Below, piece by piece: positions 20,562 through 46,927 of a stretch of 46,927 nucleotides of DNA; within the stretch, counting starts at the first letter, position 1; every line of letters begins with the position of its first letter. The DNA comes from a virus. The notes beneath the pieces are model-generated. The model made no database searches and had not been told where the DNA came from. It saw only the letters and a list, made by a program, of their open reading frames with translations. The stretch is from IMG/VR virus record IMGVR_UViG_3300029258_004662, positions 1-46,927 of that record; one strand, 5' to 3'. The position numbers and the translations under genes are program-made.

Positions 20562-21082
20562 CCTCGATCTGGCTAGACATCATTCTCAGACATACAGTGA
20601 CCGGCGAAACCCGGCCGTTCCAACTGCCGCAGCTCCCCGCGGGATTTTCATATCACCCAAACATTCCAAACGGAATCCGCTGGTTTGGCGGCGACGGACT
20701 CCCGACGGACTTCGTCGCGGGCGATTGCCGCCCGGCCACGAGTCTGTTCAACGTCAGAGTTGACGAGAAGGACATTCCGGCGATTTCTGCGCATCTGGCG
20801 AAACAGGGCAAGAAGGTCGTCTACACGCCGGACGCCCCGGAACGCGACGTGCTGATGATTGAAATGGCGAAGGCGTGCCCCGTCGGGCGTGTCGAGGAAT
20901 CCAAGGCCGACGCTTTTTTCGACTCTATCGACATGGCCGAGGGCGACGCCGCGAAGCGCCAGGCCGTTGCCGACTGCATCGCGCAAGCGCAGGCGCGGGG
21001 GCTTCTCGCCGCAAAGGCGATGGAAATCGCGGAACGTCTCGACGTGGCCGATGTCGAACTGACGGCTCGGAGGGAGGCATGA
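20558..21082 (+). CDS. Hypothetical tail-associated protein
   Basis: The 174-residue protein begins at a GTG overlapping the stop of the SR-repeat gene by four bases and ends overlapping the next gene. It starts with beta strands (SIWLDIILRHTVTGETRPFQ) and continues with helices in its C-terminal half (EEAKADAFFDSID-like, then AEGDAAKRQAVADCIAQAQ). Its location between the SR tip gene and the three-domain sugar enzyme suggests a tip or chaperone role; no family recognised. Confidence 0.55.
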   Translation: MTSIWLDIILRHTVTGETRPFQLPQLPAGFSYHPNIPNGIRWFGGDGLPTDFVAGDCRPATSLFNVRVDEKDIPAISAHLAKQGKKVVYTPDAPERDVLMIEMAKACPVGRVEESKADAFFDSIDMAEGDAAKRQAVADCIAQAQARGLLAAKAMEIAERLDVADVELTARREA

Positions 21083-23799
21083 GGCTACGCGAGCGACTGG
21101 TCAGGGCCGAACGCGCAGAAGAGGACGCGAAGCGTGCACGCGCTCCCTGCAATTGCGGGATGGAGAAGATCCTGCCCGCGATCGGTCGCAAGGACATCCC
21201 GTTCAAGGGCGTCCAGTCGCTGCTGATCAACGCGCACAATGAGGGGGCGGATCTCGTGAACACGGTCAAGAGCTTCCGCGCGCGCTGCCTGAGTCCGCTT
21301 GAAATCCTCATCCTGGCCGACATGACGACAGACGATTCACTCGAACATCTTCGGGGTTGGGCTTTTACGCAGGAGCACAAGAAACTCGAACCGGTCACGG
21401 ACGTGACGACGCTTCAGGCCGAGGCGTGGGCCTTTCCGAACGGGCGCCTGGCGATCGTGCGCAACACGGGCGAACAGCCGATAGGCTGCGGGAAGGCGAA
21501 ACAGTATTTGAGCCGCGTGGCCACCGGCGATTTTCTCTGGCACTCCGACGGGCACAATCGCGTCGTTCATGGGATGCTCGACCAGGGCGCGCGGTTTGGC
21601 GCGTGGGCGCAGTGCGTCGTTCAGCCCGCGCTCGGTCCGATCCGCCAGAAGCCGCACGAGTGCGTCATCGAGCCGGTTCCCGGGAACTGCTACTACGGCG
21701 GGCGGCTGATCCTGAAGCGGGGCATCCCGGACATTGACCAGCAGACGAAGTATCCCTCGCGGATCGTGGCGCGAACCGAATGCGTCAACAACTCGTGCTT
21801 CGGCTATCCCCGGTCCCTGCTGAAACGTTTCGGTGGCTGGCACGAATACGAAGGCCGCTGGGGATTTCAGGAGGCGGGTTTCTCCTGGCGCTGCTGGTGG
21901 ACGAAGACGGCGATCTACGTCCTGCGTGATCTGGCCGTCGTGCATCGCTACCAGGACTGGTGGACGGGGGAGCATGCGGGCGAGTATCGCGGGAAGCGGG
22001 AAGAAGGCCCGGCGTTCAACAAGACGAACTGGGGCGGCGCGGCGAACAAGCGCCACGCGACGATGGTGTGTTTCGACGGGGCGACGTGGGACGGCTACTG
22101 GGCGCGGCACTTTTCGGCTGTCGAGCCGAATCCGACAGCTGAGGACGCGCTGAAACGCTCCTCGGCCGAACGGCAGCGGGAGGAATTCAAGCCGCTGAAG
22201 CGGCGGACGGATATCGAGTTCTTCAGGGAGTTCGCGGGAATGAATTACAACCCGGCGGAGGCGACGGTGCGCGAGGGCGCGGCGGACGCGCTGTATCTGA
22301 CCACGGGCGGCCTTGGCAACGCCCTTCTCTGCGTTCCGGCCATGAAGGCGCTCGCGAAGCTCGCGGGACGGCCGATAGACGTATGGGACCGGGGCCTGCA
22401 TGTAAAGGGCTTGCGGGACTGGCTAGCCCTCCAGACGTGGGTTCGGAAGATTCTCACCGCGAAACCGGACTATCGGGATTACCGATACATCGTCGGATCG
22501 TACTGGACGGCCCCGGACATCGCGCATCTCGAGGGCTGCACGATCAGCCCGGCGCACCGGCAACACAGAACGAAGCATGAAGCCCTGAGCAACATGGAGG
22601 CCGTTCGCGCGGCGGGGTACGACGGGCCTTCGCCGAGTCCATGCCTCACCGTGCCGCCCGGCAGCGAGCCGATCAAGGACGATGCGGTGGTCATTTGCAC
22701 GGAGGCGGCGGGTCGCCGCGACGACGTGAACAAGTGCTGGCCGCACTGGGAGGAATGCTGCCGGCAGCTGAAGGCGGCGGGCGTCCCGCTGGTCTTTCTC
22801 GGGAACAACGACGAATCCCCGGCGTGGATGGACGAACTGGGCATCGACCTGATCGGAAAAACCGACTTCATGACAGCAGTCCGAATCGTGGCCGGCGCCC
22901 GCCTTTACGTCGGCATAGACAACGGGCTTGCTCACGTCGCGACGGCAGTCCGGACCCCGCAAGTGCTTCTCTACGGCCCCACGTCGCCGCGAAAGAACTT
23001 GCAACTCACGCAGGCGGTCCACGTCATCGCCTCGGACTGGCAATGCGCCCCGTGCTTCGACACGCACCGGAAGAACCGGTGCAAGAACGAACCGAAGGGC
23101 GCAATGCCCTGCATGAGGGCGATAGACCCGGAGCGCGTCGCGCGGAAGGTCCTGCACCTGCTCGACACGCCCCACGCCGACGCGCTCCCGTGCGGCCAGA
23201 CGTTTCTCAGTCGGAAACAGATGGTCGAGAACATGCGCCTTGAGATGTTCCAGCAGTGGGACGAACTCACGCGGCTGCTGGACCTGATCCGGGACGTGGA
23301 TCCCCGGCGCGTGCTTGTCATCGGGACACATCACGGGGCATGGGAGTTGGTGGTTTCCGGCGTATGCAGCCCGGGCACGGAATTCGTCATGGTGGACCTC
23401 GAGGACTTTCCGCAACGCCAGGAGACGGAGCGGCTTCTGAACGCGCTCGGCTTTCCGACGCTCTTCATCAAGGGCGACTCGACAGCGAAAGAGACCGTGG
23501 ACGCCGTGGGCGTGGCGCTGGCCGGTCAGAAAGCCGACGTGGTCTACATTGACGGCTACCACGGGTACGAGACTGTTGACGCGGACTGGAAGAATTACGG
23601 GCGGCTGGCCGCAGCGGATGGCCTGGTCGTATTCCATGACGTTGCGAACTTCGTAAACGACGACGCGCCCGGCAGCCGAAAGCACTGGGCCGAACTCAAG
23701 TATCTGCCCTCGACATGGGGGACGATGGAAATCCGGCACGGGCGGAACAACGGCTACGGGGTCGTTTTCGTTCCGCCGGCCGAGCAGCCGGCTCACTGA
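21079..23799 (+). CDS. Three-domain glycosyltransferase/methyltransferase
   Basis: The 906-residue protein appears to join three enzymes. Residues about 44-330 resemble a GT2 (GT-A) glycosyltransferase: SLLINAHNEGADLVNTVKSF, a GTGDFLWHSDGHN-like acidic site near residue 155, and KRFGGWHEYEGRWGFQEAGF. Residues about 396-690 resemble GT9/heptosyltransferase (GLGNALLCVPAMKALAKLAG; ARLYVGIDNGLAHVATAVRT). Residues about 740-890 look like a class I methyltransferase (VLVIGTHHGAWELVVSGV; VVYIDGYHGYETVDADW). It overlaps the preceding gene by four bases. This suggests a single machine building and methylating a glycan, plausibly on virion proteins. Confidence 0.8.
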   Translation: MRLRERLVRAERAEEDAKRARAPCNCGMEKILPAIGRKDIPFKGVQSLLINAHNEGADLVNTVKSFRARCLSPLEILILADMTTDDSLEHLRGWAFTQEHKKLEPVTDVTTLQAEAWAFPNGRLAIVRNTGEQPIGCGKAKQYLSRVATGDFLWHSDGHNRVVHGMLDQGARFGAWAQCVVQPALGPIRQKPHECVIEPVPGNCYYGGRLILKRGIPDIDQQTKYPSRIVARTECVNNSCFGYPRSLLKRFGGWHEYEGRWGFQEAGFSWRCWWTKTAIYVLRDLAVVHRYQDWWTGEHAGEYRGKREEGPAFNKTNWGGAANKRHATMVCFDGATWDGYWARHFSAVEPNPTAEDALKRSSAERQREEFKPLKRRTDIEFFREFAGMNYNPAEATVREGAADALYLTTGGLGNALLCVPAMKALAKLAGRPIDVWDRGLHVKGLRDWLALQTWVRKILTAKPDYRDYRYIVGSYWTAPDIAHLEGCTISPAHRQHRTKHEALSNMEAVRAAGYDGPSPSPCLTVPPGSEPIKDDAVVICTEAAGRRDDVNKCWPHWEECCRQLKAAGVPLVFLGNNDESPAWMDELGIDLIGKTDFMTAVRIVAGARLYVGIDNGLAHVATAVRTPQVLLYGPTSPRKNLQLTQAVHVIASDWQCAPCFDTHRKNRCKNEPKGAMPCMRAIDPERVARKVLHLLDTPHADALPCGQTFLSRKQMVENMRLEMFQQWDELTRLLDLIRDVDPRRVLVIGTHHGAWELVVSGVCSPGTEFVMVDLEDFPQRQETERLLNALGFPTLFIKGDSTAKETVDAVGVALAGQKADVVYIDGYHGYETVDADWKNYGRLAAADGLVVFHDVANFVNDDAPGSRKHWAELKYLPSTWGTMEIRHGRNNGYGVVFVPPAEQPAH

Positions 23800-44168: not shown

Positions 44169-44247
44169 GACTTGAGGTTTCTTCGGGATAATGGCTGAGT
44201 GTGGTCGTGCGGCGCGGGCCGCGCGATCATGGCTCGGAGATGAGGGG

Positions 44248-44970
44248 ATGACGATGGCGAAACGCGAAAAGGCCCAGAGTCACAAGAAGGCCGGGATTCG
44301 CTGGCGGGTCAGCGAATCGGTTTTCCCGGCGGACATCCTGGCCGACGAGACATTGCAGAAGGCCTCCGTCGAGGTGCGCGGGGCATGGCTCTGGTCTCTA
44401 CTGCAGATGTGGAGGGAAAAGACGTTCAAGGTTGGGGGCGCCGTGCGGGATCTGGCTCAGCTTTGGGCTTGCTCGCCCCGGGTGGCCGTGCGCATCATTT
44501 TGGAGATCAAGCGGCTCGGGATCGCGGATGTAACGCTCGATGTAACGCTTGCAAACGGAGATAAGAACTCGTTAGAAACTGCACGTGTAACGCTTGGTAA
44601 CGAAAATGTAACAGAGAAAACGCGCAATGTAACGCTGGTATGCAGAAGGCTTCAACGTCGCCATAGGAAAAGGATTAGGACGCGCGAGCGCGTGAAGAAA
44701 CACCGTTGTAACGCCAATGTACAACCCGAAAAAGGCGTCCCTTCTACCTCTATATCTATTTCCTCTTCTTCTCCAACCTCTTCGTTAGAAGAGGTTGGAG
44801 AAAGGAGAGGAGCCGATCGCGCTGCGCCGCCGCGTCCTGAAGGGACGCGCGGCGGCGCGCGCGCTGACACGGAAACGGCCGCGGGCGAGCCCCCGCGAGA
44901 ATACAAGCTTCACGAGAACATGCCGGAGGGGCATCCCCTTCGGCAATTTCTGGAAGGAGGCGCGGCGTGA
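44248..44970 (+). CDS. Replication initiator-like protein (DUF1376/YdaU-like)
   Basis: The 240-residue protein begins with a helix-rich N-terminal domain (WRVSESVFPADILADETLQK, GAWLWSLLQMWREKTF, LAQLWACSPRVAVRIILEIK) resembling the phage replisome organizer/DUF1376 group. The middle contains the VTL repeats coded by TGTAACGCT iterons, then a low-complexity Ser segment and a C-terminal tail with KLHENMPEGHPLRQFLEGG. Start at 44248 or 44254. It probably binds the iterons inside its own gene and recruits host replication proteins, as lambda O does. Confidence 0.7.
   Translation: MTMAKREKAQSHKKAGIRWRVSESVFPADILADETLQKASVEVRGAWLWSLLQMWREKTFKVGGAVRDLAQLWACSPRVAVRIILEIKRLGIADVTLDVTLANGDKNSLETARVTLGNENVTEKTRNVTLVCRRLQRRHRKRIRTRERVKKHRCNANVQPEKGVPSTSISISSSSPTSSLEEVGERRGADRAAPPRPEGTRGGARADTETAAGEPPREYKLHENMPEGHPLRQFLEGGAA
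44528..44802. other. Probable origin of replication (iterons and hairpin)
   Basis: Four perfect TGTAACGCT iterons occur at 44529-44537, 44541-44549, 44586-44594 and 44628-44636, with weaker copies at about 44595-44603, 44607-44613 and 44707-44715. Three of the four are preceded by A. Downstream, after a T/C-rich A/T-richer stretch, lies a perfect 15-bp hairpin (44769-44783 with 44788-44802, loop GTTA). All in the middle of the replication gene, as in lambda O. Confidence 0.75.
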
Positions 44971-45071
44971 TGGTCTGGTCGATGATAGTCGTGCTTGGCT
45001 CTTATCTCGTGTGCTGCGCCGCGGGCTTATATTGGGTCTGGTGGTATCTGGAAGATCGGGAGAGAAAGTGA
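44970..45071 (+). CDS. 33-residue single-pass membrane peptide
   Basis: ATG at 44970 overlaps the replication gene stop (ATGA) with RBS AAGGAGG at 44954-44960. The peptide (MVWSMIVVLGSYLVCCAAGL then YWVWWYLEDRERK) is one membrane helix. The stop overlaps the next GTG. It may be holin-like, a regulator, or a membrane anchor for the replication complex. Confidence 0.6.
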   Translation: MVWSMIVVLGSYLVCCAAGLYWVWWYLEDRERK

Positions 45072-45250
45072 CGGAGCGGTTGTTGACGAGGGACGAGGTG
45101 GCGGAGCGGCTTCGAATCAAGCCGGGGGCGGTGGATTATCTTCGCCGGCGGCGGGCGCTGGCGTGCGTGCGGCTTTCTCCTCAGATGGTGCGGTATCGGG
45201 CCGAGGACGTGGAGGAGTTCATCCGGCACGCGCACGTGGCGAGGCGGTGA
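45068..45250 (+). CDS. Excisionase-like HTH protein
   Basis: The 60-residue protein starts at GTG 45068 overlapping the preceding stop. It is a MerR/HTH_17-like winged helix (LLTRDEVAERLRIKPGAVDY, LRRRRALACVRLSPQMVRYR), typical of phage excisionases and adjacent to integrases. It probably bends attR/attL DNA to direct excision. Confidence 0.8.
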   Translation: MTERLLTRDEVAERLRIKPGAVDYLRRRRALACVRLSPQMVRYRAEDVEEFIRHAHVARR

Positions 45251-45342: not shown

Positions 45343-45367
45343 GGAATGAGGGGAGGAGGTGACGACG

Positions 45368-46627
45368 ATGGCTGCGTGGCGAAAGGTGTGGCTTTGGCGA
45401 CGCGAGCAGAAGACTCGGACGACGTACTGTCTGCGGTGGTACGAGGATGATTTCCGAATGAGGACGAAAGCCGTCGGGACGGACAAGGAGCACGCCGAGG
45501 GGGAGCGCCGGAAGTTCGAGTACGAGCTGAACACGGGCGCGGGCTCGGCGGCGGCGCGGCTTCGAACGCTCGGCGACCTGGCGGACGAACATCTGCGCGT
45601 GTCGGCGGGTTCGGTTCGGCCGGCGACGTTGACGATTCAGCGGGCGGCGCTGGAGACGTTCTGCGCGTTCGTCGGTTTGGGCGCGAAGGCGCGGAGGTCT
45701 GAGTCTAACGGCGCGTGCCGGGTGTGCGGGCGTCCTGAGAAGGTGAAGGGGGAGGCTCGTCCGGAGTCGGTTCGGCTGGGCCGGCTGGGGCTGTGCGCGG
45801 GGTGTTTCGCGGAGGCGCTGGAGGGGGGCCGGAAGAGCCGTGTGCCGGCGGCGAGTCCGCTGGTCGCGGCGGAGTTCGTGGCGGCGCGTCTTCGGGAGGT
45901 CTCGCGGGCGACCGCGAATAAGGAGCTTCGGACGTTGCAGGCCGTCTTCCGCGCGGCGGTTGAGCGGGAGTCGGTTGCGCGGAATGCGTTCGAGTCGGTG
46001 CGGCGGGTTCGCGAGGCGCAGAAACGGATTCGGACGCTGACGGCTCTGGAGATCAATGCGCTGCTGGCGGCGTGCTCTGAGGACCGGTCGCTGCAGGCGT
46101 TCGTGTTCGCGGCGGCGACGACGGGGGCGCGCGTGGGGGAGCTGCTCAACCTGCGCGTGGAGGATGTGGATTGGGAGACGGGGGACGCGCCGCTGGTCAA
46201 TCGCGAGTCGGATGGCCACGTGTCGAAGAGCGGGAAGGAGCGGCGGGTGTGGTTTCTGCCGCTTGCGCGGGAGTTGCTGAGGATAGCCTTGGACGGGCGG
46301 GTGTCCGGGAAGATCTGGCCGTGGTCGGTGTACGGTGCGCACGGGCGGTTCGTTCGCGCGGTGGCGCGGGCGGGTCTGAAGCATGCGACGCCGCACGATC
46401 TGCGGCGGACGTTCGCGAGCGACCTGCAGGCGCACGGCGTGGCGTCGGCGACGGCGAAGGCGCTGCTCGGGCATGCCTCGATCACGACGACGGAGCAGCA
46501 CTACACGGCGATCCCGGCGGAGACGCTGCGGGCGGCGGCGGAGCGGTTGAGCTTCGCGCGGCCGGCGGCGATCGTATCGTTATCGTATCGCGAAGGCCTC
46601 GGGCGGTCCGAGGCGCGGACGGCTTGA
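45368..46627 (+). CDS. int: Tyrosine recombinase (integrase) with zinc-knuckle insertion
   Basis: The 419-residue protein carries the tyrosine recombinase catalytic residues: Arg255 (TTGARVGELL), Lys near 287-290, His343 and Arg346 (TPHDLRRTF), His369 (LLGHASITTT) and Tyr379 (EQHY). An N-terminal arm-binding-like part and a core-binding domain are interrupted by residues 112-154, where two CxxC pairs (Cys117, Cys120, Cys143, Cys146) form a zinc-knuckle insertion. ATG 45368 with GAGGAGG is preferred over GTG 45359. It would insert the phage at the tRNA-Leu site. Confidence 0.93.
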   Translation: MAAWRKVWLWRREQKTRTTYCLRWYEDDFRMRTKAVGTDKEHAEGERRKFEYELNTGAGSAAARLRTLGDLADEHLRVSAGSVRPATLTIQRAALETFCAFVGLGAKARRSESNGACRVCGRPEKVKGEARPESVRLGRLGLCAGCFAEALEGGRKSRVPAASPLVAAEFVAARLREVSRATANKELRTLQAVFRAAVERESVARNAFESVRRVREAQKRIRTLTALEINALLAACSEDRSLQAFVFAAATTGARVGELLNLRVEDVDWETGDAPLVNRESDGHVSKSGKERRVWFLPLARELLRIALDGRVSGKIWPWSVYGAHGRFVRAVARAGLKHATPHDLRRTFASDLQAHGVASATAKALLGHASITTTEQHYTAIPAETLRAAAERLSFARPAAIVSLSYREGLGRSEARTA

Positions 46628-46652: not shown

Positions 46653-46664
46653 GTTGTGCGGAAC

Positions 46665-46706
46665 GGGCGAGTGGCGGAACCGGCAGACGCATGGGACTTA
46701 AAATCC
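46665..46706 (+). other. 5' half of a tRNA-Leu(UAA) gene, probable att site
   Basis: The sequence matches a tRNA-Leu from the acceptor start GGGCGAG (46665-46671) through the D arm (GCGGAACCGGCAGACGC) to the anticodon loop CTTAAAA with anticodon TAA (46699-46701). Similarity stops after TCC at 46704-46706: the 3' anticodon stem (TCCGC instead of TCCCA), variable arm, T arm and acceptor 3' end are missing. It lies just downstream of the integrase, where an attP would be expected. The core would be around the anticodon loop. Confidence 0.65.
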
Positions 46707-46927
46707 GCCGATGGCCCGTTTTCCAGCCTCCAGACTAACCTACTGCGCAGTCGCCTCTTAGCGCATAACTCCCACCTATAAGCCGCAGTTATGACAACGT
46801 CGCACCCCTGAGATGTAATGCACATTCGCGACACTCGTGTAAACGGTTCCAGGCCGCTTCGTATCAAAATCGTATCGGAGAGCGGCGTAGGTACTTCCCG
46901 CGGCCCGGAGGCCCGCCATTTTTGCAT
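46707..46927. other. Right-end region
   Basis: 221 bases without a gene. It contains the right arm of the 17-bp inverted repeat (46743-46759), a 7-bp inverted repeat (CATAACT at 46764-46770 with AGTTATG at 46787-46793), and a third ATCGTATCG copy (46869-46877). Likely integrase-binding region. Confidence 0.5.
46743..46759. repeat. 17-bp inverted repeat, right arm
   Basis: CTGCGCAGTCGCCTCTT is the exact reverse complement of 45290-45306. Confidence 0.9.

Follow-up and report, generated by a model that had tools for sequence, protein, structure and literature searches.

A putative phage replication initiator gene that carries an array of GTAACG-type iterons, a candidate in-gene origin

In phage lambda, ori-lambda has its iterons midway along the initiator gene O, with a low-GC tract after them (PMC7466680). 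The replisome organisers of the lactococcal phages Tuc2009 and TP901-1 bind repeats within their own genes, and these repeats act as ori (PMC8965321). In the staphylococcal plasmid pSK41, the RepA_N-type initiator Rep has an N-domain that binds four boxes in the centre of rep (PMC5703833). Here we describe a viral DNA of 46,927 nucleotides (IMG/VR record IMGVR_UViG_3300029258_004662; the whole stretch is called the window below), in which the gene at 44191-44970, a putative replication initiator gene, holds tandem direct repeats in its middle.

The first-pass annotation had likened this placement to that of lambda O, and in layout the likeness holds: mid-gene iterons are followed by an asymmetric low-GC tract. 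The window differs from lambda in the sequence of the iterons, in the protein and in having no helicase-loader gene downstream, and its units are short (8-9 bp), several of them standing at steps of 10-12 bp or multiples thereof. With Tuc2009 and TP901-1 it has in common the presence of repeats in a gene that, in the window, putatively encodes a replisome organiser, binding by the window protein being presumed; the repeats read in the Tuc2009 sequence are GCAACCAAA-like, not TGTAACGC as in the window. pSK41 is a plasmid system, and its Rep has no sequence match to the window protein.

The repeat array and its surroundings

Four perfect TGTAACGCT direct repeats with weaker units in mid-gene, followed by a perfect 15-bp hairpin, had been noticed at first pass, and all of them could be located exactly (Table 1). 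The cores at 44587, 44597, 44608 and 44629 are separated by 10, 11 and 21 bp, that is, in helical phase, and iteron 5 takes the position at which two relatives of the gene, L194 and L236 (see below), have their arrays. Read in frame, the repeats give D-VTL, D-VTL, R-VTL, N-VTE and N-VTL. Their earlier description as D/R/N-VTL units is correct for four (DVTL, DVTL, RVTL and NVTL) and fails for those at 44597 and 44707, whose readings in other frames mean that the repeats are not bound to a single frame.

Table 1. Features at and around the gene 44191-44970 (positions in the window)
Feature	Position	Strand	Basis or remark
Putative replication initiator, replisome-organiser-like winged helix, C-terminal disordered linker	44191..44970	+	ORF; hhalign; predicted wHTH topology, moderate confidence
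Iteron 1, TGTAACGCT	44529..44537	+	exact match
Iteron 2, TGTAACGCT	44541..44549	+	exact match; 12 bp from iteron 1
Iteron 3, TGTAACGCT	44586..44594	+	exact match
Weak iteron GGTAACG	44596..44602	+	different frame, reads G-N-E (core 44597)
Weak iteron TGTAACA	44607..44613	+	sequence match
Iteron 4, TGTAACGCT	44628..44636	+	exact match
Iteron 5, TGTAACGCC	44707..44715	+	different frame, reads C-N-A
Degenerate unit TGTACAAC	44718	.	weaker unit
C/T-rich, Ser-coding low-GC tract, candidate unwinding element	44736..44786	+	base composition; similar tract in L236
Perfect 15-bp hairpin, loop GTTA	arms 44769-44783/44788-44802	.	4-nt loop
MerR/HTH_17-type excisionase-like protein	45068..45250	+	domain/profile matches
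Tyrosine integrase	45359..46627	+	domain/profile matches

Since four units share one frame, the repeats might be a protein feature, VTL/NVT peptide units acting in the linker with the DNA repeat as a by-product; 27 of 76 loci found elsewhere with at least three TGTAACGC copies are indeed single-frame protein repeats of low complexity (VTP and VTG among them), which were set aside. This explanation is already contradicted and can be regarded as very improbable. First, synonymous codon choice in the window gene is kept far above expectation: in 10,000 genome-codon synonymous draws of the same protein, TGTAACGCT was expected 0.035 times (maximum 2) and is observed 4 times, TGTAACG was expected 0.18 times and is observed 5 times, and the observed counts were never reached (P<=1e-4); within-gene codon shuffles likewise give P<=1e-4 for both motifs. 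Second, two of the window units sit in other frames, and the GTAACGC core occurs in more than one frame above synonymous expectation. Third, two or three frames are used in 37 of the 45 distinct non-repetitive array loci. Moreover, GTA encodes Val in all five VT dipeptides of the gene (P about 3e-7), although it makes up 5% of the Val codons in the window of this GC-rich record. Selection on the array at the DNA level is thus supported.

On the + strand, the 48-bp windows with the highest pyrimidine content in the whole stretch fall within the low-GC tract. Its GC content of about 40% versus 65% places it among the lowest 0.8% of 40-bp windows, and it is not strongly AT-rich. The hairpin is the sole perfect one with arms of at least 11 bp and a loop of 3-8 nt in the 46.9 kb window; it is absent from L194 and L236, and a role as a conserved part of the origin is not supported. 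An origin peak in cumulative GC skew, suggested at first pass, is not seen, the skew being positive throughout the window and making no turn at the gene.

A scan of window ORFs revealed no recognisable helicase or helicase loader, and the genes next downstream encode the excisionase-like protein and the integrase. Just past the integrase gene, a tRNA-Leu (UAA) gene is represented at 46663-46715 by its 5′ part, found by reading (it is not called by ARAGORN), and this fragment is probably the attachment site. Elsewhere in the window, 20875-23799 encodes a 974-aa phage protein, part of which resembles a heptosyltransferase and which matches glycosyltransferases weakly. An integrase adjoining a tRNA-Leu fragment in a viral contig record could also befit a degrading prophage with a decayed or inactive origin remnant, as could the compactness of the gene 44191-44970 and an insertion of 30 residues that its relatives do not have. 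Such decay is improbable here, as the ORF is intact, its repeats are under codon-level constraint and the terminase gene of the window is intact as well.

The encoded protein and its relatives

The gene 44191-44970 encodes 259 aa, and its true start may be the ATG at 44248 or 44254. Its first-pass assignment as DUF1376/YdaU-like was not confirmed directly: the protein has no Pfam match at E<=0.1, including DUF1376 (PF07120) and Phage_rep_org_N (PF09681), and no PHROG or NCBIfam match. A profile of six family sequences aligns with PF09681-type replisome organisers over the N-domain (hhalign 93.6%, E 2.1e-7, 114 columns), whereas comparison with the YdaU/phrog_2509 set gives no significant protein match (hhalign 11%, E 0.0028). 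The profile comparison supports a distant homology between the window family and the Phage_rep_org_N replisome organisers, which include that of Enterococcus phage phiEf11, and the gene most likely makes a protein that starts phage DNA replication. phiEf11 carries a GTAACG/CGTTAC array in the linker; in the PF09681 initiators the array follows the charged helix, whereas the main array of the window precedes it, in an insertion of the wing.

An AlphaFold model built from five sequences has the element order of a winged helix followed by a long charged helix, with a mean pLDDT of 59.7; a single-sequence model was discarded for its poor quality. The PDB fold matches of the model are weak (E 6e-3 at best) and include 4pt7, 4pql and 5kbj, which according to their entries are structures of an initiator, a DNA-binding protein and a Rep-DNA complex. 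The wing insertion, without counterpart in the relatives, is the 30-residue one mentioned above, and most of the window iterons lie in or beside it.

Direct protein searches of viral contigs, genome contigs, phages, plasmids and 392 genomes of Planctomycetota (the phylum of locus L040) yielded no relatives, three weak genome matches proving spurious on reading. When loci were collected through the repeat alone, L194 emerged as a relative by phmmer and BLASTP (BLASTP E 3e-6) and L236 was recognised by reading; a third, Pam1_56 of phage Pam1 (L308:1492-2199), was reached by tblastn with L194 and lies directly downstream of a DnaB helicase gene. Conservation of the repeats in diverged relatives, which had been anticipated, was found: at 21-28% protein identity, L194 and L236 keep 5 and 7 GTAACG cores, respectively, in two frames and at steps of 11-13, 22 and 24 bp, and the iterons of L236 are directly followed by a Ser-coding C/T tract, as in the window. 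As the motif led to both, finding it in them is no independent evidence, unlike the layout and frame use that they share and the protein homology. Pam1_56 has no GTAAC array and carries at the corresponding place three CCTAATA copies (noted by reading, with no statistics), which may be another, switched iteron.

The GTAACG core in other initiator genes

Arrays of at least three TGTAACGC copies occur in at least 119 stretches of viral contigs, with fewer than one expected by chance in a rough estimate that assumes about 5e10 bases and has no reversed-pattern comparison. The ORFs at the non-repetitive array loci that have any match belong mainly to replication initiation, primosomal and primase families, and many have none. 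Enrichment of the TGTAACGCT-N3-TGTAACGCT pair was rejected (17 stretches versus 15 for the reversed pattern), and a pattern of two iterons plus an arginine pair had no matches. Further copies near the pair are found in 11 of the 17 stretches and in 2 of the 15 reversed controls, both of the latter being a single overlapping inverted copy at -12. Eight small proteins of about 85-180 aa (L203, L205, L221, L227, L238, L239, L245 and L252) combine an arginine-rich 'RV+RYR' helix with a VT-coding array; no winged-helix domain is seen in them, as if they were linker and origin alone.

The fair test of the motif uses YdaU-type and PF09681 genes chosen by protein similarity alone; the query proteins, L020 and L014, came via the motif, so that the families are motif-led and their members are not. 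GTAACG exceeds synonymous shuffles (P<=0.016) in 8 of 11 YdaU-type genes (Rac, TL-2011b, CP2, Olaya, PAN70, VW-6S, CBW1004C-Prop1 and ctnlZ23) and, at the same threshold, in several PF09681 genes (phiEf11, Javan290, IPP51, phiIPLA7, L023 and L024). In the initiators of named phages (Rac ydaU, TL-2011b, CP2 and phiEf11), the arrays use several frames and both strands. Rac YdaU and phrog_2509 have the GTAACGC core in common with the window, in several frames and above synonymous shuffles; unlike in the window, it forms two clusters (N-domain and linker) in both orientations. The motif is present in 66 of 66 distinct ydaU-like alleles examined, the L188 allele having its linker copy in a different frame; near-identical ydaU alleles offered too few codons for testing conservation (P 0.42), and genomes sampled without bias for PF09681 and phrog_2509 yielded too few loci. 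eps15 and phiPSA1 are without GTAACG and have GTCCGC at the same two places, while 52A carries GTCACG/CGTGAC. The motif, whose pairing with its initiator had been put forward as possibly new, is not private to this phage: Rac YdaU, phiEf11 and many others have it too, and GTAACG iteron arrays extend to the initiator genes of very distantly related bacterial viruses. We found no description of the GTAACG iteron in the open-access literature searched; it may nevertheless be known to specialists.

TGTAACGC clusters are also seen in L012, L033, L044 and L056 with no recognised initiator ORF in the stretch, L044 (Selenomonadales) having up to 21 TGTAACG copies within about 250 bp; possibly these are origins with a distant initiator gene. 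Three of these loci (L012, L056 and L044) can instead be cited in favour of operators and against an origin, expression being controlled through the repeats by the protein itself or by a different regulator of phage or host, and one motif across phages of very different hosts could mean one conserved regulator. We consider operators unlikely, since the arrays lie deep within coding sequence and away from promoters, are associated with initiator, primase and primosomal genes and, in the window and L236, precede a C/T-rich tract.

A proposed model for initiation and its implications

The product of the gene 44191-44970 is probably a phage replication initiator that binds the iterons in its own gene, which would also contain the origin. 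On the best reading this is an origin of in-gene iterons, as in lambda O, Tuc2009 and pSK41, that uses a widely shared TGTAACGC iteron. This reading is supported because the repeats exceed what the protein demands, use more than one frame and recur in relatives and in other initiator families, because of the profile match to Phage_rep_org_N proteins, because Pam1_56 directly follows a DnaB helicase gene, because eps15 and phiPSA1 have GTCCGC in place of the motif and because the Tuc2009/TP901-1 and pSK41 proteins bind repeats within their own genes; the PDB fold matches, though weak, also count in its favour. It is weakened by the failure to recognise a helicase or loader gene, by the GC skew without a turn, by the moderate quality of the model with its weak PDB matches, and by the TGTAACGC clusters outside recognised initiator genes (L012 and L044). 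In the proposed mechanism, the winged-helix N-domain would bind the mid-gene TGTAACGC iterons, and several units, at steps of 10, 11 and 21 bp, would stack on one face of the helix. The nucleoprotein body may then strain the adjoining C/T-rich low-GC tract until it opens, and the initiator would pass the replicative helicase to the opened strand.

An in-gene origin has to meet the protein code and a binding code simultaneously. We lean slightly towards a broader proposal, in which phages widely share TGTAACGC as an origin iteron. In any fitting frame, this one core word would mark the in-gene origins of winged-helix initiators that belong to several protein families and host phyla, and GTCCGC or GTGACG could take its place at identical positions; phage origins would then be readable from sequence alone. 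If one iteron word is common to the initiators of unrelated hosts, the origins of many uncultured phages would become predictable, and the specificity of initiator for iteron, together with its switching, could be tested by swaps between laboratory phages.
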